From: a virus
Reading direction: 5' to 3' (one strand)
Virus record (IMG/VR): IMGVR_UViG_3300031974_000702
Span: 1 to 20,020 of that record
Length of the DNA: 20,020 nucleotides
The position numbers and the translations under genes are program-made. Below the pieces are notes generated by a model that was not told where the DNA came from, did no database searches, and saw only the letters and a list, made by a program, of their open reading frames with translations. Positions 1,059-10,691 of the stretch are shown piece after piece (the stretch's first letter is position 1; each line of letters begins with the position of its first letter).

Positions 1059-2170
1059 AAAGCGAAACCTTTGAAACTGTCTTTCTCAACATCTTGTTTA
1101 ATCCCTCCCACAACATAGGATTCAATCTCTGTCTCCTGTGGTGCGTTTTGTAAACCCTTACTATTTAGCCAGTGTTCTGTCCATGGTAATGGGTTCTGGT
1201 TTTTAGGTTGGTCGTATATTGGATCAAGTCCAATCGCCCTCATTCTCTTGTTGGCGATAAACTCAACGTAGTTATGTAGTAACTTATCATTCAGTCCAAT
1301 CATACTTCCATCTTTGAATAGGTAGTTTGCCCAATTCTTCTCTTGTTCAACACAATCTTTATACATCTGGATAACGTTAGGTTTTTCTTCTTCTATAACT
1401 TCTAACATCTCTTTATCTTTCTCATGGTTCATGTAATTCTTAATTATGTGTTGACTTACTGCGAGGTGTTGACTCTCGTCCCTGGCAATCAATGATATAA
1501 TCTTCGCACTACCTTCCATTAATTTTAATTCACCAAAAGCAAAACTACAAGCGAATGAAACATAGAAACGGACACCTTCTAAGATGTTAACGTTGATGAG
1601 TGTTCTCCAGAGTTTTCTCTTTAACTCTTTCGTGTTGATACCCTGGACTTCTCCATCAAGTAACCATCTCTGTCCGTCATTGATTAATTCGTCATATGTC
1701 TTCGTTACTGCCTCTGCTCTCTCTGTGATATACTTATCTGTCAAAATTTTGTCGAAAACGTCTGACGGATTTGAATATACGTTCTTAATGATGTATGTAT
1801 AAGACCTGGAGTGGATAGATTCCATGAAGTCCCATATCAATATACAACTCTCTAACTCTGGTAGTGAACAGAATGGTAGGAATGCCAGACATGGACCACG
1901 ACCCTGTACACTATCTAATAGTGTTTGATATCGTAGGTTAGATGTGAAGATATGTTTCTGTTCTGGTCGTAAATCTTGCCAGTCATTTCTATCTTTCTGT
2001 AGAGATACCTCTTCCGGTCTCCAGAATAGACCCAGTTGATGTTGAGTAAGTTTATCAAAGATAGGATACTTGTATGTATCAAATCTCTGTACGGCATTGT
2101 CCTCTCCAAAAAACATAGGTTGTTTTGTGAAATCTATGTTTGCGTTTTTATTATATACACTCTTACTCAT
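1055..2170 (-). CDS. nrdB: Ribonucleoside-diphosphate reductase class Ia, small (beta) subunit
   Basis: 371 residues, full length for NrdB. It holds the diferric centre and tyrosyl radical used by NrdA to reduce ribonucleotides. All expected iron ligands and the radical site are visible: Asp86 (LLDSVQG), Glu117 and His120 (ESIHSRSYTY), radical Tyr124, Glu198 (ILEGVRF), Glu232 and His235 (ARDESQH). Tyr352 near the C terminus fits the residue relaying the radical to the large subunit, and the acidic/hydrophobic tail (EKDSFKGFAL) is the usual NrdA-docking peptide. AAGGGATAAAA precedes the ATG. Two unrelated genes separate it from nrdA, which is unusual. The start overlaps the end of the ATE-like gene by 8 bases. 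The enzyme should be active and supplies deoxynucleotides for phage DNA. Confidence 0.97.
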   Translation of the reverse strand: MSKSVYNKNANIDFTKQPMFFGEDNAVQRFDTYKYPIFDKLTQHQLGLFWRPEEVSLQKDRNDWQDLRPEQKHIFTSNLRYQTLLDSVQGRGPCLAFLPFCSLPELESCILIWDFMESIHSRSYTYIIKNVYSNPSDVFDKILTDKYITERAEAVTKTYDELINDGQRWLLDGEVQGINTKELKRKLWRTLINVNILEGVRFYVSFACSFAFGELKLMEGSAKIISLIARDESQHLAVSQHIIKNYMNHEKDKEMLEVIEEEKPNVIQMYKDCVEQEKNWANYLFKDGSMIGLNDKLLHNYVEFIANKRMRAIGLDPIYDQPKNQNPLPWTEHWLNSKGLQNAPQETEIESYVVGGIKQDVEKDSFKGFAL

Positions 2171-2912
2171 TTTTATCCCTTTCTTTGTAATAGTCTTTTT
2201 GACGATAATATAAATCTCTTAGACTTTCTATATCGCTATCTTTGTTTAGTAAATTTCTAAACAACTCTTTATCTCTACTCCATTTTCTGCCAGTCCACCA
2301 CTCAAAACCATTATAGTGTGACTTGTATTCACATACCCGTTCATAAGCATATGAAGAATAATAGTATTGGAACCTCATGCCCCTATACATCTCACACTCA
2401 AAATTCTGAGCGAATGTGCCTAAATTTAATTCAGGCATTTCATAGTCCCAAGCGAACTCGCCCGCAACTACACTTTCCTTATATCTCGTTAGTTGAGTAT
2501 AGCCAATTATCTTATCATCGTACCAGTAGATAAAATAATCTTTATCGCCATATGGTTTATCAACTAACTCACTTCCGTGGTCATCATAACCCTTGTGTTT
2601 ACAATATTTCTCGTATATCTTATCACACTCTTTCTGCCAGGGATTATCATCTGGATAATATCTGCCAGTAATATCTTTCTTCATGTATTGTCTATGTTTC
2701 TTCTTCACAGAAAATTCATCTAATACAATTCTTGTTGTCCTTGCCTGTATCCATAGTTGGTCGTCCGTGCGATAAAAAAAGGCATCCATAGGTGTCCAAC
2801 CTAATGATAATGCCTTGTCTTCTTCGTTCTTATCAACCTCCGCTAACGCAAGTCCGTATATTATATCATACTGGGTTGTGTTACCGTAAATATGGTCATA
2901 AAATATCTTCAT
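2163..2912 (-). CDS. Arginyl-tRNA-protein transferase-like (ATE/GNAT fold) protein
   Basis: 249 residues. The C-terminal half resembles the catalytic domain of arginyl/leucyl-tRNA-protein transferases, a GNAT-fold family that adds an amino acid to protein N termini. Seen in order: a basic stretch KKKHRQYMKK (70-79) like the family's S-R-x-x-R-R region; a beta strand pair YFIYWYDDKIIGYTQL (126-141); and LGTFAQNFECEMYRGMRF (164-181), YYYSSYAY (183-190) and YKSHYNGFEWWTG (196-208). These match the family order LG-alpha helix-YxYxGY-YKxxFxxxE. The N-terminal Cys cluster of true ATE enzymes is not evident, so it may be a GNAT acyltransferase with another substrate. It sits between nrdA/unknown and nrdB with 17- and 8-base overlaps. 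Fold assignment is inference from patterns; function is open. Confidence 0.5.
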   Translation of the reverse strand: MKIFYDHIYGNTTQYDIIYGLALAEVDKNEEDKALSLGWTPMDAFFYRTDDQLWIQARTTRIVLDEFSVKKKHRQYMKKDITGRYYPDDNPWQKECDKIYEKYCKHKGYDDHGSELVDKPYGDKDYFIYWYDDKIIGYTQLTRYKESVVAGEFAWDYEMPELNLGTFAQNFECEMYRGMRFQYYYSSYAYERVCEYKSHYNGFEWWTGRKWSRDKELFRNLLNKDSDIESLRDLYYRQKDYYKERDKNE

Positions 2913-3606
2913 CTTTATTCTTTTTATTTACAGGTCCTATTTGTGTCTCCTCTTCGTTGTTATACTGTTCTTTAGTCTCACGTTCCCATTGTGTGAAATA
3001 ACTATCGTCTGTGATACTATCCTCTCTGGTATTCTCAACCGTATAGAAGTTTTGGTCTATGAGATAACCAGGGTTACCATCTAAACGTTTCTCCATAAAT
3101 GCGTCATCGTACCATATCGTTCTATTGTTTGGATATGCGAAGAAATTACCATCGTCCATCCTAAACATATGGGCGCACTTATGCTCTGGGTCCTCACTAA
3201 AGTTTGTGTCTAACATACCCGCTTTATCTTCCCAACCAAAATCAATGGTGAACATATAGGTACCTTTTCTCTTTGTACCGTGCCAATCAACTAACTCTGC
3301 TCGACAATTTGCCAATCTATTTCTTCTCTGTACGTTAACATAACTACTGAAACAATCCCAGTACATATGAATATTCAAAGGATATATTGGTGCGTCTTTC
3401 TTCCATACAAAAGCATTGATAGGTCTTCTCGTCCAGTTTACACCATTTGGTAGTAGGCACTCAAATAATATTGCCCTACGTTCCATACAGTTGACGGTAT
3501 GTATATCTGAGAATGTGAACTCACCATGACCCTTCGTGTGATTGTAGAGATACTCGTTTCTTATGTAACCACTAAATGGTGGTATGTTATGATTTAAGTA
3601 TGCCAT
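2896..3606 (-). CDS. Conserved hypothetical protein next to nrdA
   Basis: 236 residues starting MAYLNHNIPPF. This start is chosen because its ATG forms a TAATG junction with the nrdA stop; a start four codons further upstream would lie inside nrdA. The protein is rich in Trp, Tyr, Phe and Asn with beta-strand-like stretches (AILFECLLPNGVNWTRRPINAFVW, about 45-68, and TYMFTIDFGWED, about 116-127) and ends in a low-complexity Glu/Asn/Lys tail. There is no signal peptide or membrane segment, and I see no catalytic motif. From memory, similar proteins occur beside nrd genes in T4-like cyanophages, which suggests a role in nucleotide or DNA metabolism, but that is only context. Function unknown. 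Confidence 0.8.
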   Translation of the reverse strand: MAYLNHNIPPFSGYIRNEYLYNHTKGHGEFTFSDIHTVNCMERRAILFECLLPNGVNWTRRPINAFVWKKDAPIYPLNIHMYWDCFSSYVNVQRRNRLANCRAELVDWHGTKRKGTYMFTIDFGWEDKAGMLDTNFSEDPEHKCAHMFRMDDGNFFAYPNNRTIWYDDAFMEKRLDGNPGYLIDQNFYTVENTREDSITDDSYFTQWERETKEQYNNEEETQIGPVNKKNKDEDIL

Positions 3607-5924
3607 TATATCGCACAAGCCTCACAATATTCTTCGTATTCCTCGTTTGAATTAAACTCACTTCTTGGTTTTAATTCATTCTCAGGTCCTCCAATACCAT
3701 GTGCGGGTTCATCATCGTTCTTGCCGTCATATGTATTCTGATAGTAAGAAGTCTTCCAACCCATCTTGTATGTGGTCAGTAGGTCTCTCGCCATCACAGA
3801 TACTGGCACTTGATTACCCTCATACTGTTCTGGATTATATGACCAGTTACCAGAGATGGCTTGGTCAAAATACTTTTGCATTACTGCGACCACGTTGATG
3901 TAACCCTCGTTGCCCCTCATATCCCAAAGTAATGTGTAGTGATTTTTGAGATTAGGGTAACCTGGCACTATTTGTTTGAGTGGTCCTTTTTTTGATTTCT
4001 TAACGGACAGGTAGTCACGCGGCGGTTCAATACCATTTGTTTCGTTACACACAACAGATGAACTTTCGCTTGGCATTTGGGCTGATAACGTGGAGTGTCG
4101 TAACCCGTGTTCCTTGATATCCTGTCTAATAGTATTCCAATCATAAGTTAGTTTCCTCTTAACGATACTATCGACATCTTTCTTGTAGGTGTCGATTGGT
4201 AGTATTCCATCAGAATATTTAGTTCTATCAAACTTATCACAAGCGCCTTTCTCTTTGGCCAATGCGTTAGATGATTTGAGTAGGAAGTATTGGAATGCCT
4301 CTGTCCACTCGTCCAGTAGTCTCCAAGCGTCTGGTGTGTCGTATTTTACTTTGTTTTTCGCCAGAAAGTGTGCCAGTCCAATGTAACCAATACCCAGACT
4401 TCTTCTCGCTTTCGTTGATATCTCTGCGGCCTTGACTGGATAATTTTGTAGGTCGATGAGTTCTTCTAACCCTCTCACAGATAGGTCACATAGGTTCTCT
4501 AGGTCTTCTTTCTGTTTGACGGCACCTAAGTTTATCGCACTTAGAATACAAAGAGCAATCTCACCTGATCCATCAATGTGTTGTAGTGGATCTGTTGGTA
4601 GTGTAATCTCCTGACATAGGTTGGACATATACACATGGTCTTTGAAACTTGAATGTGTGTTGACGTGGTCTATATTCATTATATAGATACGACCAGTCTC
4701 CGCCCTCTCTTTCAGAATGGCCATGAAAAGGTCTTGAGCCTTAACTTTCTTCTTCTTAATCTTCGTAGAGCGTTCATACTTTTCGTATAACACATCAAAC
4801 TCAGGTGTGCCATACTTATCATAGAGACCGGGACAGTCATGAGGAGAAAAAAGGGAAATATCATCATTATTAATAAAGCGCTGATAAAATAATTGAGATA
4901 TCTGTATTGAGTAATCAAGTTTTCTAACACGGTTATCCTCAGTCCCTTTGTTGTTCTTTAATACGATAATGTCTTCTATCTCTTGGTGCCAAATAGGAAA
5001 GTGAACAGTTGCTGACCCGCCTCGTACACCGTTTTGAGTACAGCACTTAACAGTTGCTTCGAACTTTTTAAGAAACGGGATAACCCCGGTGTGTTGGACT
5101 TCCCCTCCACGTATTCTACTATTGATTCCCCGGATTCTTCCAGCATTGATACCAATGCCTGCCCTCTGGGAGACATAACGTCCAATAGCCATGTCGCTAG
5201 AAAAAATACTTGGAAGAGTATCATCACTATCGACCAAGACACAACTAGCAAACTGGCGAAGAGGAGTACGAACCCCAGCCATAACAGGTGTTGGAATGTT
5301 AATAAGATGTTGTGAAATAGCGTTGTAGTATTTTTTGACATAACTTAATCTCTTCTCCGTATCGTAATTACGAAACAATGTTGCCGCAATCATCATGTAC
5401 ATATACTGTGGTGTCTCAAAGATATCACCCGTACTTCTATCTTGTACCAAGTATTTATCAACAACCTGTCTCAAACCAGCGTAAGAGAATAGATAATCCC
5501 TATCATGTTTAATCATTTCATTCATGGATTCTATCTCATGTGGATCATACCAAGATAGTATCTCTGGGTCATATACACCCTTCTCTATACAGTTAGAGAT
5601 ATGTACCTTCAAATGTGGGTGCTCCCATAATCTATGATGGAGAGATTTTCTCAAACTAAAGAGAAGCAAACGAGCAGCCACATATTGATAGTTGGGATTC
5701 TCCAGTGTTATCAGGTCAGAAGCAGATTTAATTAATATTTGTTGTATTTCGTCCGTTGTGATACCATCGTAGAATTGTAACCCACTCGACATTTCTACTT
5801 GGGATTCTGATACACCAGATAGGTTCTCACAGGCATAATGTACCATGCTGTGAATTTTTTGTATATCCAGAGGTTCGAGGCCCCTACCATTTCTTTTTTT
5901 AACGTTAATAGTCTCGGGCGACAT
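3606..5924 (-). CDS. nrdA: Ribonucleoside-diphosphate reductase class Ia, large (alpha) subunit
   Basis: About 772 residues, normal for NrdA. It reduces ribonucleoside diphosphates with NrdB. Residue numbers here count from the upstream Met. An N-terminal ATP-cone (about 7-75) suggests dATP/ATP activity control. Cys229 (FASCVLVDSDD) and Cys460 (ALCILSAINLGAV) are the redox pair. SNLCQEITLPT supplies the catalytic Asn436, Cys438 and Glu440. Tyr728-Tyr729 (TSYYQN) continue the radical path, and the tail CEACAI holds the Cys768/Cys771 pair that takes electrons from a glutaredoxin or thioredoxin. No glutaredoxin gene is seen here, so host or distant phage reductant is implied. Two ATGs occur (5927, 5924). 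The GGAGG directly before them is too close to the first, so 5924 is preferred. It overlaps the primase stop (ATGA). Confidence 0.97.
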   Translation of the reverse strand: MSPETINVKKRNGRGLEPLDIQKIHSMVHYACENLSGVSESQVEMSSGLQFYDGITTDEIQQILIKSASDLITLENPNYQYVAARLLLFSLRKSLHHRLWEHPHLKVHISNCIEKGVYDPEILSWYDPHEIESMNEMIKHDRDYLFSYAGLRQVVDKYLVQDRSTGDIFETPQYMYMMIAATLFRNYDTEKRLSYVKKYYNAISQHLINIPTPVMAGVRTPLRQFASCVLVDSDDTLPSIFSSDMAIGRYVSQRAGIGINAGRIRGINSRIRGGEVQHTGVIPFLKKFEATVKCCTQNGVRGGSATVHFPIWHQEIEDIIVLKNNKGTEDNRVRKLDYSIQISQLFYQRFINNDDISLFSPHDCPGLYDKYGTPEFDVLYEKYERSTKIKKKKVKAQDLFMAILKERAETGRIYIMNIDHVNTHSSFKDHVYMSNLCQEITLPTDPLQHIDGSGEIALCILSAINLGAVKQKEDLENLCDLSVRGLEELIDLQNYPVKAAEISTKARRSLGIGYIGLAHFLAKNKVKYDTPDAWRLLDEWTEAFQYFLLKSSNALAKEKGACDKFDRTKYSDGILPIDTYKKDVDSIVKRKLTYDWNTIRQDIKEHGLRHSTLSAQMPSESSSVVCNETNGIEPPRDYLSVKKSKKGPLKQIVPGYPNLKNHYTLLWDMRGNEGYINVVAVMQKYFDQAISGNWSYNPEQYEGNQVPVSVMARDLLTTYKMGWKTSYYQNTYDGKNDDEPAHGIGGPENELKPRSEFNSNEEYEEYCEACAI

Positions 5925-6904
5925 CATACCTCCTTGTAATTATTTAATTGTTGCTGTGCGGATAATTTTGAAAATGTATTATTATCTATAATAGTTTGTA
6001 TCTCTGCCACACTCATGCCTGCCATGACCATATCATTAATATCTTTGTGTTTCAATGACTTAGGAAAGATACATACTTTTTTATTATTTAAAATTAATTG
6101 TTGTATTTTATCAACGATTTGTTTGTTCCTTGGTTCGTTATCCAAGATATACACAGCGTTGGGTAGATTGATATTCAAGTCTGCCCCTGCGGCCGCGATA
6201 GCATTTGGTAAGAATAGACTATCTATTGGACCCTCTACGACATAAACCTTCTTGTTCACATCTAGTCTATCAAGTCCATATATTCGTCTTTTGTTCTCAT
6301 CTAGTTTTATCGTTATATACCTGGGATCCTCTTTACCAAAAGCACGCCCTTGAAACGCAAACATATTATTGTTCACATCAAAGAAAGGTAGGACGACCCT
6401 AGGGTGATCCACAGAGTTGACTAGACCCTGTTGGAACTTATTTGGTATTAAGGAGTTGACCCAGGCATAAAATTTTGGACAGAAATAGATCCTATCCAAA
6501 AACTCTGTTAGTTGTCTCGTCTTTGTGAATTGATGTGCTGGGTGGTCTTTCTCCAGTTTATCAAATCGTGTGAGACCACTTAAATTTCTATCTGGAAATA
6601 CTACAGGTTTAAAAGTAAACTCTGGTTCTTTCACTTTACCACCTTTGTATTTGGCGATAACATATTCTCTGTATAATTGTGGGTCTATGTGTTCTATCAG
6701 TTTACCAAGAGTGGTACCCTTCGAACAGTTATGGCACTTGAAAAAGTATTCGTTCTTCATAGAGTAAACGAAACCACGTGCCTTAGATTGTTTCTTTTGA
6801 CTATCACCACAATACGGACAACGAAAGTTGTATAGATTGTTAGATTTCTTCTTAAATCTGTCTAGTCTTGGTGATAACGTCAAAAGGTATTGAATGTCAA
6901 CCAT
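5924..6904 (-). CDS. DNA primase, T4 gp61-like (zinc finger plus TOPRIM)
   Basis: 326 residues. It makes RNA primers for lagging-strand synthesis with the replicative helicase. The N terminus has a CPYCGDS knuckle (Cys29, Cys32) paired with CHNC (Cys57, Cys60), the zinc-binding domain that reads the template. The TOPRIM catalytic core is visible: YVVEGPIDSLF (221-231) with Glu224, then YILDNEPRNK (252-261) with the metal-binding Asp255, then a Lys-rich segment ending KDINDM. It is the first gene of the cluster primase-nrdA-...-nrdB, just downstream of a strong promoter. AAAGG lies upstream of the ATG with normal spacing. Length and domain order match the T4 gp61 group rather than bacterial DnaG, which is longer. 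Confidence 0.9.
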   Translation of the reverse strand: MVDIQYLLTLSPRLDRFKKKSNNLYNFRCPYCGDSQKKQSKARGFVYSMKNEYFFKCHNCSKGTTLGKLIEHIDPQLYREYVIAKYKGGKVKEPEFTFKPVVFPDRNLSGLTRFDKLEKDHPAHQFTKTRQLTEFLDRIYFCPKFYAWVNSLIPNKFQQGLVNSVDHPRVVLPFFDVNNNMFAFQGRAFGKEDPRYITIKLDENKRRIYGLDRLDVNKKVYVVEGPIDSLFLPNAIAAAGADLNINLPNAVYILDNEPRNKQIVDKIQQLILNNKKVCIFPKSLKHKDINDMVMAGMSVAEIQTIIDNNTFSKLSAQQQLNNYKEV

Positions 6905-6921
6905 AATTACCTTTCTTAATT

Positions 6922-7140: not shown

Positions 7141-7229
7141 TTTTTTCCTTTCATATTTAACATACTATACTATATAACATGTTTTTATGAAAAAGGACAG
7201 CACTACTTACTTATAGACGCTATGTAGAA
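7141..7229 (-). promoter_or_regulatory. AT-rich leader of the 55-aa gene, possible weak promoter
   Basis: Between the BMP terminator hairpin and the small gene, the minus strand is AT-rich and contains TATAGT (about 7166-7171), about 18 bases downstream of TTTTCA (about 7190-7195). This is a poor match to a sigma70 promoter. No T4 late motif is present. I see no other gene here. Confidence 0.3.
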
Positions 7230-7261
7230 AACGCATAGACTATCTCTAGTATCTATGCGTT
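7230..7261 (-). terminator. Terminator-like hairpin after the BMP gene
   Basis: A perfect 10-base inverted repeat: AACGCATAGA (7230-7239) and TCTATGCGTT (7252-7261), with a 12-base loop. On the minus strand it lies 13 bases after the end of the substrate-binding protein gene and runs straight into TTTTC, as expected of an intrinsic terminator with a short T run. The stem is only moderately GC-rich and the loop is long, so it could instead stabilise the 3' end of the message. Confidence 0.6.
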
Positions 7262-7274
7262 CTTAATATACTAA

Positions 7275-8339
7275 TTATTGTGGTAATTCTCCGTCAATGC
7301 CCTTGACATACCAATTCATGCCAAGTAACATACCATCATCAGCGACTTCGCCTTCTGGTACCATTAACTCGCCTGCCTGGTTGTAGATAGGTCCCTCGAA
7401 GGAATGTATCTCACCACTTCTCAGAGCGTTCTCTAGGGCGATTGCCTCATACTTCGTCTCAGGTGACATGTTGCGATATGGTGCCATTTCTACCATACCA
7501 CTATCTAAACCCTTCCACGTATCAATTGGTTCCCACGTTCCATCTGCCAATGCTTTCGCTCTGGCAACATAGTATGGTCCCCACTCGTCAATGATTGCGG
7601 TTAGGTGTGCGTCTGGACAAAAGTCATATTGATTACTTGCCTGACCAAATGCCAATACACCATTCTTTTGTGCGACTTGACATGGGGCGTAAGTATCAGT
7701 ATGTTGGACTATAATATCAGCGCCTTGGTTGATTAGTGTCTGTGCGGCGTCTGCCTCTTTACCTGGATCATACCATGTAAATGCCCAGATTATCTTTACC
7801 TTAATATCTGGATTTACTTTCTGTGCGGCCAACATGAAAGAGTTGATACCTCTTACAACTTCTGGTATTGGGAATGATGCGATATAACCTACCACACCAG
7901 TCTTACTCTCTTTACCAGCGATGTGTCCTGCGATTGTTCTACCCTCGTAGAACCTAGAACTGTATGTCGCCACATTTTCTGACCGTATGTACCCAGTAGC
8001 ATGTTCGAACTTCACATCTGGAAACTCTTTTGCCACCTCGTGTGTTTGATCCATATAGTTGAAGGACGTAGTGAAAATCAAATCGTGTCCACTTGCCGCA
8101 AGTTTTCTTATGGCACGGACAGCGTCAGCATTTTCTGGTACGTTCTCAATGTATGTTGTTTCAAACCCTAATTCAATCTCTATGTCCTGACGACCTTGGT
8201 CGTGCATATAAGTCCAACCATGGTCTCCTGGTGGGCCTATGTAAATGAATCCTATTTTGGGGTCTTTTGCGAATGTAGTTGTTGATAATAAAATCAATCC
8301 TATTACTACAAATAGGGTTGAAGTCAGTTTTTTAAACAT
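7275..8339 (-). CDS. BMP-family ABC transporter periplasmic substrate-binding protein (nucleoside/purine type)
   Basis: 354 residues. A Sec signal peptide is clear: basic MFKK, hydrophobic core 8-19, and a TFA|K cleavage site after about residue 24. The mature part reads as a type 1 periplasmic binding protein of the BMP (Bmp/Med/PnrA) family: KIGFIYIGPPGDHGWTY (28-44), NADAVRAIRKLAASGHDLIF (70-89), FPDVKFEHATGY (106-117), PIPEVVRGIN (158-167) and ADIIVQHTD (207-215). There is no Cys lipobox, so it is soluble in the periplasm; Cys220 and Cys241 could form a disulfide. Known relatives bind purine nucleosides or related bases for an ABC importer. No permease or ATPase is adjacent, so it must serve a host transporter. 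GGAG lies 5 bases before the ATG. It is full length with no frameshift and has its own leader and terminator: a host-derived auxiliary metabolic gene. Confidence 0.9.
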   Translation of the reverse strand: MFKKLTSTLFVVIGLILLSTTTFAKDPKIGFIYIGPPGDHGWTYMHDQGRQDIEIELGFETTYIENVPENADAVRAIRKLAASGHDLIFTTSFNYMDQTHEVAKEFPDVKFEHATGYIRSENVATYSSRFYEGRTIAGHIAGKESKTGVVGYIASFPIPEVVRGINSFMLAAQKVNPDIKVKIIWAFTWYDPGKEADAAQTLINQGADIIVQHTDTYAPCQVAQKNGVLAFGQASNQYDFCPDAHLTAIIDEWGPYYVARAKALADGTWEPIDTWKGLDSGMVEMAPYRNMSPETKYEAIALENALRSGEIHSFEGPIYNQAGELMVPEGEVADDGMLLGMNWYVKGIDGELPQ

Positions 8340-8354
8340 ATATTCTCCATATCT

Positions 8355-8371
8355 CGGGACTCACCTTCCCG
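8355..8371 (-). promoter_or_regulatory. Hairpin in the leader of the BMP gene
   Basis: CGGGA and TCCCG (5 bp, 7-base loop) lie just upstream of the ribosome binding site GGAG (8348-8345). The stem could influence translation start or the stability of the message. It does not match any riboswitch consensus I can recall. Short, so moderate to low confidence. Confidence 0.35.
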
Positions 8372-8389
8372 TTGTTTAAGTTGATGACT

Positions 8390-8401
8390 TACTATATAGT
8401 A
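8390..8401. promoter_or_regulatory. 12-base palindrome in the BMP upstream region
   Basis: TACTATATAGTA is a perfect palindrome about 50 bases upstream of the BMP start codon and 17 bases before a plus-strand ATG at 8418. Either strand offers TATAGT as a -10-like element, so it could serve divergent transcription or bind a dimeric regulator. No convincing -35 box is present on either side. AT-rich palindromes also arise by chance. Confidence 0.3.
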
Positions 8402-8417
8402 GTGAGTAGAATTATAT

Positions 8418-8603
8418 ATGTCTGAAAAAAAAGTTAAAACTGAGTATGACTGGCGAGGTGTTGATATCAAGTATGGTAATCGTGGGCCAGAACTAACCAA
8501 AAAATCCACTGTCCATAGAACCTTGAAGAATGAATCCAAGAAGGATAGCACCGCCAATAATCAGCCATCGCCATCTCTCAAGGATTCCAACTCTACTATC
8601 TAA
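8418..8603 (+). CDS. Possible plus-strand small gene, 61 aa (doubtful)
   Basis: The only plus-strand frame that reads like a real protein at its start: MSEKKVKTEYDWRGVDIKYG, then GPELTKKS, in mixed natural codons. The first 25 codons (8418-8492) lie in the otherwise gene-free space upstream of the BMP gene. The remainder (8493-8603) is antisense to the coiled-coil/TM gene, and its Ser/Asn/Lys-rich composition there looks like a shadow. There is no strong ribosome binding site (only GAGTAG at a distance). If real, it is transcribed divergently from the BMP gene from the palindromic region. It may instead be a relic of the insertion that brought in the BMP gene, or chance. Confidence 0.25.
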   Translation: MSEKKVKTEYDWRGVDIKYGNRGPELTKKSTVHRTLKNESKKDSTANNQPSPSLKDSNSTI

Positions 8604-8918
8604 CTTATCCTGTACCTGGTCGATTGCCTCTCGTAAATTGCGACTTTGTGTGGTAATCCTAGAATGTAGGTCTTTTAAATCTTCTTCCCATTCTCGTCTT
8701 CTATCTTCTAATATGGAGAATAGGTCGTCCTGTGAGGTATCAACTCTACGGAGTTTCTCCTCGTGTACCGCCAACATAGATTTTATGCCAGCAGAAATAT
8801 CTGTGAGTTTAGTTATAGCGTTGTCAAGTCTCTCATGGACCTGACCAGATGTCTGCCTGTCTGCTTTTAAGACAGCGATATCTTTAATCAGTTCCTTGAT
8901 TTGTGTTCCGTTCTCCAT
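8493..8918 (-). CDS. Coiled-coil protein with C-terminal membrane segment (XhlA-like lysis candidate)
   Basis: 141 residues. Residues 5-112 form a long heptad-like helix rich in Lys, Glu, Asp, Arg and Leu (MENGTQIKELIKDI ... QVQDKLDSRVGILER). They are followed by one membrane segment, WLIIGGAILLGFILQG (about 118-133), and a short tail. This layout, soluble coiled coil then C-terminal TM, is that of XhlA-type holin-associated proteins and of some tail-anchored phage proteins. Its position after the spanin-like pair supports a lysis function, but sequence similarity to XhlA is only architectural. Its start overlaps the lipoprotein gene by 35 bases. It could also be an inhibitor or scaffold of lysis. 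Confidence 0.55.
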   Translation of the reverse strand: MENGTQIKELIKDIAVLKADRQTSGQVHERLDNAITKLTDISAGIKSMLAVHEEKLRRVDTSQDDLFSILEDRRREWEEDLKDLHSRITTQSRNLREAIDQVQDKLDSRVGILERWRWLIIGGAILLGFILQGSMDSGFFG

Positions 8919-9261
8919 CTTCGTAATATTCCCTATAACTTAATAAAATTTGATTTGTCTCGTATAACTTATTACGAATGTCTGCGAAGTTTAATGATAG
9001 TTTCTTATACCCCTCGTCTGTTACTGCGAACAGGGCAGCATCACCACCTTCTGCTTTCACTTTCTCCATCACTTCATCAATATTGTCTGGAGTTACGATG
9101 ATCCACTCTACATCTATTAACTCTAGTGGTTCTGGATTGGGAATACTAAGAGGTTCTCTTTTCTTCTCAATCTTGTAACTCTGTAGTTCCTTCACCGCAA
9201 CTGCGGCACAGCCATTAAGGAACAGGCCAAAAACTAGGACACTCCCTATTAGGCGTACCAT
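8884..9261 (-). CDS. Outer-membrane lipoprotein, o-spanin (Rz1-like) candidate
   Basis: 125 residues with a lipoprotein signal: MVRLIGSVLVFGLFLNGC, lipobox L15-N-G-Cys18. After cleavage and lipidation at Cys18, the mature protein is about 108 residues with SIPNPEPLEL, VEWIIVTPDNIDEVMEKV and a C-terminal helix NFADIRNKLYETNQILLSYREYYE. The gene begins inside the 3' end of the i-spanin-like gene (47-base overlap), the usual arrangement of Rz/Rz1 pairs. AGGAATTAA precedes the ATG. It is longer than classical Rz1, which is short and Pro-rich, so this would be an unusual o-spanin. A role as another late lipoprotein cannot be excluded. Confidence 0.65.
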   Translation of the reverse strand: MVRLIGSVLVFGLFLNGCAAVAVKELQSYKIEKKREPLSIPNPEPLELIDVEWIIVTPDNIDEVMEKVKAEGGDAALFAVTDEGYKKLSLNFADIRNKLYETNQILLSYREYYEDGERNTNQGTD

Positions 9262-9655
9262 TTAATTCCTCCTCAGTTAGGGGTGACCCACTCGCTATCT
9301 CAGCGCAACGTGTGGCATTCTTACTCGCCCCATTAATAATTCGTTCAACTAACCCTGGCTTGTTCTCTGCCAGGTTTCCTATATCATGTTTGCCCAATCT
9401 CTTAGTCAAACTTGCCTTGTCTTTTTCTAATTTATCTTTTTCTTTTTGTACTTTATCTAACGTACTTCTTATCTTCTTAAAATCTGCGGCCTGACTCTCT
9501 ATGACGTTCTTCTGGTCTTCTACTGCGGATTCTAATTTTATCTGGTTAGATTTAAGGGTAGCGTTATCTTTCTGTAGTTTCTGAACGTATAGGTATCCAC
9601 CTCCGGCACCTGCCATCATCACCAATACTAATCCTATCTTCAAACTACTGAACAT
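9215..9655 (-). CDS. i-spanin (Rz-like) candidate
   Basis: 146 residues. An N-terminal signal-anchor (IGLVLVMMAGAGGGYLYV, about 7-24) is followed by a long charged coiled coil (about 25-90, QKLQKDNATL ... KDKASLTKRLGKHD), then a periplasmic end LVERIINGASKNATRCAEIASG with two Cys (about 117 and 139). Such inner-membrane anchored coiled-coil proteins span the periplasm and, with an o-spanin, fuse inner and outer membranes in the last step of lysis of Gram-negative cells. The overlapping lipoprotein gene downstream strongly supports this pairing. The start joins the stop of the TM-protein gene by TAATG. Spanins are poorly conserved, so the call rests on topology and context. Confidence 0.7.
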   Translation of the reverse strand: MFSSLKIGLVLVMMAGAGGGYLYVQKLQKDNATLKSNQIKLESAVEDQKNVIESQAADFKKIRSTLDKVQKEKDKLEKDKASLTKRLGKHDIGNLAENKPGLVERIINGASKNATRCAEIASGSPLTEEELNGTPNRECPSFWPVP

Positions 9656-9942
9656 TACTGTTTATCAAATTTCTCTAAATCTGCCAATCTACTTTCTAAT
9701 TCATCTATCTTCTTCGTTATGCGTGGGTACTTCTTACGCCATGCGTCTGGATCATTCTGTAACCAAGTCCAACCCCAACGATTTACTAGATATTCTAACG
9801 TACGGTCAAACTTCGCAACACCCCATGTTGCCATTCGTGTATCTTTGAACCAGAATAAGAAAGCGGCACTCAATAGAGAACCACCAATCGCTGTGTAGAT
9901 CCATAATCTATCACCTGCCATCTGTGAAATCATATCCCACAT
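9655..9942 (-). CDS. Single-TM small protein, holin candidate
   Basis: 95 residues with one hydrophobic segment, LWIYTAIGGSLLSAAFLFWF (about 13-32), a short N terminus and a charged C-terminal part (NRWGWTWLQNDPDAWRKKYP, then the helix KKIDELESRLADLEKF). The TM plus a charged tail, in a cassette with spanin-like genes, is compatible with a holin-like pore or pore regulator. The RWGWTWLQNDPDAWRKKYP phrase recurs, from memory, in marine T4-like phages, where the protein is unnamed. TAATG junctions at both ends imply translational coupling with the lipase upstream and the i-spanin downstream. Not proven to be a holin. Confidence 0.55.
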   Translation of the reverse strand: MWDMISQMAGDRLWIYTAIGGSLLSAAFLFWFKDTRMATWGVAKFDRTLEYLVNRWGWTWLQNDPDAWRKKYPRITKKIDELESRLADLEKFDKQ

Positions 9943-10691
9943 TACTTATCCATCTCCCTCTTACAATACTCGTAATAGTTATGAACACCATGGTCACTAA
10001 AACCATCTATCTGTAGGTGTGATACACCTCTGAATGTACCCTTGAACCATTGTTTCATCATGTACCAACGACTAAAGTTTGTCGATACATTACCATCGAT
10101 GTCAAAGTAGATGAAGTTACCACCCTCACCAGATACATGTTTATATCCAATAATCTCAAATGGTACTCTTGTTACTATGTCGTTGTTGTTTCTGTATCTA
10201 TATCTCTCTGTCGTTTTGAAAGACTTGACGAAATTCTTACCACCAACTCTTGGTGATCCATATGTGTATAAGTGTGTCGTAGGTGTGTTCCATCTACTTG
10301 CGGCCAATGTCGCCAATGCCCCACCTAGACTGTGTCCTGTAAAGAAGACATGTTCTTTCTTTGACTTCGTTAGGAAGGCAACTACATCTGCCCATACCTC
10401 GTCCAAGGCATCCCTAAATCCTCTATGGACAAATCCTGTTGGACACTTTACTTTTCTTATCTTTAAATCTGCTTTGATGTCTGACCACTGTGTTGGTTCT
10501 GTGCCACGAAATGCCACACAGGCAATCGCACCATCGTTCCAACAATAGACCTGTGTTCCATCTACGTCAAATAGTTTTGCTTCTGGGTCAAATTCTTTTT
10601 GAAATGCCCCTAAATCCTGATAGGCTGTCATAGACGCCTTTGCCATTATCGTGGCATTTTTCCAATTATGTGTTTTTGTTAGACCTTGCAT
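9942..10691 (-). CDS. Class 3 lipase (alpha/beta hydrolase)
   Basis: 249 residues reading as a fungal-type (class 3) lipase. The oxyanion element is FRGTE (61-65); the nucleophile elbow is TGHSLGGALATL (118-129) with Ser121; the YGSPRVG strand (144-150) follows; NDIVTRVP (170-177) supplies Asp171; and DHGVHNYYEY (233-242) supplies the catalytic His (His234 probable). All the triad residues are present. It has no signal peptide, so it acts in the cytoplasm or must escape via a membrane lesion or virion. It lies immediately before the holin-like and spanin-like genes, coupled by TAATG, and its start overlaps the virion-type gene upstream by 26 bases. Possible jobs are attack on host membrane lipids during lysis, or a virion enzyme. 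Substrate unknown. Confidence 0.88.
   Translation of the reverse strand: MQGLTKTHNWKNATIMAKASMTAYQDLGAFQKEFDPEAKLFDVDGTQVYCWNDGAIACVAFRGTEPTQWSDIKADLKIRKVKCPTGFVHRGFRDALDEVWADVVAFLTKSKKEHVFFTGHSLGGALATLAASRWNTPTTHLYTYGSPRVGGKNFVKSFKTTERYRYRNNNDIVTRVPFEIIGYKHVSGEGGNFIYFDIDGNVSTNFSRWYMMKQWFKGTFRGVSHLQIDGFSDHGVHNYYEYCKREMDK

Follow-up and report, generated by a model that had tools for sequence, protein, structure and literature searches.

We report here that the window, i.e. the whole stretch of DNA that was analysed (an entire IMG/VR record of 20,020 bases), carries a gene for a substrate-binding protein of the Bmp family, predicted to be of purine-base type. We favour, with some confidence, the view that this gene of a lytic T4-type pelagiphage came from an alphaproteobacterium and lends a periplasmic purine-base binding protein to a host importer. 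The family, the pocket identity, the absence of a permease, the acquisitions from bacteria, the purifying selection, the spread, the preference for the base-type gene and the phage leaders were computed directly, whereas export, purine binding, docking on the importer and the gain for the phage are inferred.

The open reading frame is undamaged from its ATG to its stop codon (Table 1), and its product matches PF02608 (Bmp) over residues 28-310 with 178.2 bits, against a cut-off of 24.1 (E = 2.5e-52). PHROGs has no family for this protein, and the sole near match in NCBIfam falls far under its cut-off. In the N-terminal sequence, MFKKLTSTLFVVIGLILLSTTTFA-KDPK, we recognise a basic end, a T-x-A site and a hydrophobic core of mean hydropathy 2.7, but no lipobox cysteine. 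We did not detect any permease or ATPase gene within the window, and a BPD_transp_2 permease was found in 0 of 66 related phage records. The initial annotation had described an intact gene for a lone host-type binding protein with a Sec signal peptide, located between lysis and replication genes, and all of this agrees with our results: upstream are the spanin genes and a gene for a DUF7201 protein, and downstream are primase and nrdA.

Table 1. Coordinates in the window of the binding-protein gene, its signals and its neighbours.
Feature	Position	Strand	Basis
Bmp-family substrate-binding protein, predicted purine-base type (AtzT/3S99-like), 354 aa	7275..8339	-	Pfam, PDB sequence search, fold, pocket
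Sec-type signal peptide codons, residues 1-24, predicted cut TFA/KD	8268..8339	-	sequence features and hydropathy
3' hairpin with short U-run, probable terminator	7228..7263	-	MFE -15.7 kcal/mol, z -2.46
Shine-Dalgarno-like GGAG ahead of start codon	8345..8348	-	sequence
Leader hairpin, stem CGGGA/UCCCG, invariant loop AGGUGAG	8355..8371	-	covariation among clade A leaders
DUF7201 coiled-coil protein (PF23831), upstream neighbour	8493..8918	-	domain match
Rz-like spanin genes, two overlapping ORFs	8884..9655	-	phrog_812, phrog_739
T4-type DNA primase, downstream neighbour, 60% identical to HTVC008M	5924..6904	-	
nrdA, class Ia ribonucleotide reductase alpha, 84% identical to HTVC008M	3606..5927	-	

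A sequence search of the PDB returned 3S99 from Brucella (E = 4.6e-131) and AtzT, encoded by plasmid pADP-1 of Pseudomonas sp. ADP (PDB 6PI5, 6PI6 and 6PII; E = 3.5e-103), the next match being at 1e-17. An AlphaFold2 model built from 23 phage sequences (pLDDT 89.5) was compared with known structures by VIA-align. It gave Z = 48.0 with 3S99 (58% identity) and 46.8 with AtzT (49% identity), whereas the nucleoside binders Lbp, BmpD and PnrA, which share the Pfam family PF02608 and the fold, gave only Z = 33-36 with 17-23% identity (20-23% for Lbp and PnrA). AtzT and 3S99 belong to the same Bmp subfamily, have a near-identical fold and both hold a free purine base in their cleft; they are bacterial proteins, unlike the phage-borne, lone protein of the window. 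AtzT co-purified with guanine and binds guanine and adenine with Kd values of 110 nM and 2.5 μM, respectively, while adenine was modelled in the structure of 3S99 (PMC6834077).

The pocket is laid out as an aromatic sandwich (Y/W42 and W189) with S92, F93, E160 and a polar pair at positions 213 and 215. Residues W42, S92, F93, E160, W189, H213 and D215 are shared by 3S99 and 72 of 72 phage proteins, as well as by all host sequences aligned, except for one gap. AtzT has a tyrosine in place of W42, and Asn218/Asn220 where the phage protein and 3S99 have His/Asp; because of this latter difference, our prediction extends to the class of purine bases and not to one particular base. Since 3S99 and AtzT are the nearest relatives and the pocket is the same as that of 3S99, by all sequence signs, the predicted fold included, the protein appears to be of the purine-base type (adenine and/or guanine class); its ligand may also be a small non-purine heterocycle. 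The initial annotation had called it nucleoside-type and had proposed a comparison of its predicted structure with PnrA/BMP complexes. In this comparison the best fit was with the base binders and not with nucleoside-binding PnrA, and the former label should be revised, the more so as the host copies lie in neighbourhoods of purine-base salvage or oxidation.

The closest bacterial relatives (71-77% identical) come from a family of streamlined marine alphaproteobacteria, in which most genomes encode the protein; for copies from SAR11 the identity is 60-64%. A full-length host orthologue was present in 32 of the 81 Pelagibacter-genus genomes sampled, a count made on the orthologue itself. As this is less than half of them, the partner importer may be missing in many hosts. 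Host operons contain an ABC ATPase gene, two BPD_transp_2 permease genes and then the binding-protein gene, often with a purine phosphoribosyltransferase gene behind or near it. Genes for a urate oxidase N-domain, a deaminase and xanthine dehydrogenase stand beside the operon in one SAR11 lineage, and the host lineage nearest to the phage clade of the window (clade A) has a phosphoribosyltransferase gene behind the binding-protein gene and no catabolic enzyme. Judging from gene content, and independently of structure, these operons support a purine-base substrate. The same host genome also carries a second Bmp paralogue of nucleoside type, about 28% identical, beside an ABC ATPase and a probable uracil phosphoribosyltransferase (named from sequence). 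In matched IMG/VR scans with both host proteins, 134 viral stretches were found for the base-type protein versus 2 for the one of nucleoside type. Only close relatives come up in such a scan and these numbers are no census, yet they give a strong hint that phages preferentially took the base-type gene.

The search for the same gene in related marine phages, suggested at the outset, showed that many carry relatives: IMG/VR contained 151 stretches by a single-sequence scan and 445 by a profile scan, neither set being dereplicated. T4-type gp23 was present in 29 of 66 related records tested. By tblastn against 50,697 phage records the gene was not found in isolate phages; the matches were unannotated 'Bacteriophage sp.' contigs with at most 41% identity, 13 out of 14 from faecal samples. 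Phages with this gene are thus known from metagenomic contigs only.

In phylogenetic trees with host proteins, as also proposed initially, clade A, which includes the window, lies beside the streamlined marine alphaproteobacterial family. Clade B is a phage clade of its own (support 100), a small group (L269/L270) is nested in Acidiferrobacteraceae, and there are others besides. Constraining all phage sequences to a single clade costs 211 log units and is rejected (p-AU = 4.2e-8), which implies that the gene was acquired more than once; exactly how many times depends on sampling. On the evidence of these trees the gene was acquired from bacteria at least twice, and probably more often. Within clades, pairs of genes gave dN/dS values of 0.03-0.18, indicating purifying selection; for the most distant pairs dS was saturated. 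Clade B phage proteins (L026-L081) lack about 15 C-terminal residues after window residue ~315, which are present in clade A and 3S99.

By sequence relationships the phage of the window is a T4-type, HTVC008M-like pelagiphage, Pelagibacter phage HTVC008M being the nearest isolate (Table 1); hosts of individual phages were assigned from relatedness to HTVC008M. The latter has no binding-protein gene, and its block equivalent to the spanin and DUF7201 genes stands directly, about 67 bases, before the primase gene, from which we conclude that the gene of the window is an insertion in a phage of this type. Among other genes of the window, the one behind nrdA (2896-3618, minus strand) belongs to phrog_3704 ('ferredoxin'), like L082:15828-16475; this family also includes an HTVC008M gene annotated 'PurM', so the names conflict. 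Between nrdA and nrdB (2163-2912, minus strand) there is a borderline match to an arginyl-tRNA-protein transferase C-terminal domain (25.2 bits for a cut-off of 25), and upstream of the spanin genes (9942-10691, minus strand) a class 3 lipase-like protein is encoded (PF01764, E = 3.9e-22).

The gene occupies another position in many related phages. In 21 of the 29 records with gp23 it begins 137-185 bases behind gp23 (18 of clade A and 3 of clade B), and many of these are near copies; the site is nonetheless common to two unrelated lineages. The copy of the window is not at this site, and in HTVC008M gp23 is followed by an 86-codon hypothetical gene and then a tail gene. The initial annotation had argued for nucleoside uptake from the adjacency of primase and ribonucleotide reductase genes, an argument that becomes weak since most gp23-bearing relatives have the gene behind gp23. 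In 14 loci a motif resembling a T4 late promoter, TATAAATA, stands some 70 bases ahead of the gene. If it is a late promoter it would fit late expression, which is suggestive only, as its counts are near chance except in short loci and the motif is common in such AT-rich DNA. In one viral contig (L031, IMGVR_UViG_3300020470_000043), a permuted alphaproteobacterial-type tmRNA gene (1365-1751, plus strand; 86 bits) begins about 10 bases behind the purine-type gene; it may be a tmRNA gene of a marine phage or a scar of host DNA.

We then considered the leaders. Among eight distinct clade A leaders, a stem of 5 bp around AGGUGAG keeps 5 of 5 pairs, 4 of them with compensatory changes, and its covariation is 0.771 versus 0.216 in shuffled sequences. 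The stem of clade B leaders is unrelated to this one; it shows compensatory changes in 3 of 5 pairs and encloses an invariant loop of 17 nt, AGUAUCUCCUUACGAUC. Part of this loop, UCUCCUUA, can pair with the Shine-Dalgarno sequence AAGGA (duplex of -5.4 kcal/mol). Among all sequences compared, intact leader motifs precede only the purine-type gene. A covariance model built on the clade B leader picked up 19 leaders in phages and none in hosts; its two weak further matches, L164 and L175, are on contigs that had themselves been picked by the motif pattern. Many other bare-motif matches in IMG/VR have no stem or lie inside coding sequence and look like chance. Some members of the sister host clade also have the AGGTGAG hairpin ahead of the gene, but there it contains a plain Shine-Dalgarno sequence, and we therefore do not claim a structure in the host leader. 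As for the proposal that the gene is bounded by its own leader and terminator, the covarying leader hairpin bears out the first part; for the second, a strong 3' hairpin is present, but a consensus terminator scan did not list it.

The natural reading of such leaders is that they would regulate translation. One may go further and imagine both phage leaders as metabolite-responsive translation switches, a new class of purine-sensing RNA, in which a UCCUU-AAGGA pseudoknot in clade B would let the purine level control the binding protein, but we hold this to be doubtful. With Rfam, no riboswitch family was above threshold in the window and in seven clade B loci, chance matches being seen only in clade B leaders, and the xanthine-sensing NMT1 riboswitch, considered for the clade B leader, gave no match.

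Among other explanations for the gene, the least improbable, though still unlikely, is a purine binder whose role lies in nitrogen supply, or in scavenging the purines set free when neighbouring cells lyse, and not in nucleotide synthesis as such. The xanthine dehydrogenase, urate oxidase N-domain and deaminase genes of one host lineage would fit such purine catabolism, and a phosphoribosyltransferase of the phage's own is rare (3 of 34 above cut-off); however, in the host lineage nearest clade A the gene is followed by one for a phosphoribosyltransferase instead of a catabolic enzyme, and the two roles are not exclusive. Slightly less probable is a PnrA-type protein increasing nucleoside uptake. 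Its membership of the same Pfam family as Lbp, BmpD and PnrA, PDB relatives which bind nucleosides, has to be set against its much higher identity to adenine-holding 3S99, with the identical pocket, and against the separate nucleoside-type paralogue of the host, a scan with which gave only the 2 viral stretches mentioned above, against 134.

The position behind gp23 in two phage lineages, with TATAAATA upstream, could also suggest a late virion-gene product acting outside uptake, for instance a virion-associated protein, a periplasmic decoy or a factor of superinfection exclusion. We judge this improbable: the ligand pocket is complete and under strong purifying selection, the Sec signal speaks against packaging, and the gene is elsewhere in the window and in other phages, besides the frequency of the motif in AT-rich DNA. 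Finally, short IMG/VR contigs can be cellular and the host gene is common, so that we also considered whether the contigs were misassembled or misclassified and the gene was host DNA. This is very improbable, since gp23, tail tube and UvsY genes flank the gene in related phage contigs, the capsid protein of one of them (L005) is 95.5% identical to gp23 of HTVC008M, and the sequences form their own phage clades with phage-specific leaders and without the host permease.

We thus retain a loan of the binding protein to a host importer as the preferred reading. The phage protein would leave the cytoplasm through Sec and, judging from its pocket, capture purine bases in the periplasm. Once loaded, and given that these phages have no permease, it would dock on an AtzT-type ABC importer of the host, and a host purine phosphoribosyltransferase, as seen in the host operons, would convert the base to a nucleotide. 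During infection, the supply of purine, and of nitrogen, for phage DNA would in this way be raised, or kept up while host expression fails. Repeated acquisition, the repeated gp23 site and dedicated leaders suggest that selection keeps and regulates the gene. SAR11-like bacteria rank with the most abundant marine cells; if our reading is true, marine phages alter purine-base import in them via the substrate-binding subunit only. The system would then also offer a clean way to learn whether the abundance of the binding protein limits ABC import in infection.

ABC-transporter KOs were reported to be enriched in aphotic viromes, in a passage that does not name the genes (PMC5504273). In a limited search of full texts, we found no earlier description of a phage purine-base binding protein: a lone phage binding protein is known in principle, and it is the purine-base type, its breadth and its phage leaders that we did not find described. 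The precedent is PstS, a lone host-derived periplasmic phosphate-binding protein that marine T4-type phages encode without a permease. Both proteins are lone and host-derived, with the permease absent, but they differ in family and ligand. The two kinds occur together in a 147-kb T4-type phage contig (L052), where the gene of a PstS-like protein (PBP_like_2, 5960-6910) is followed, after one intervening gene, by that of the purine-type protein (8004-9020). If the role proposed here is true, the principle of PstS would no longer be limited to phosphate but would extend to a nitrogen source that is at the same time a ready-made precursor of nucleotides.
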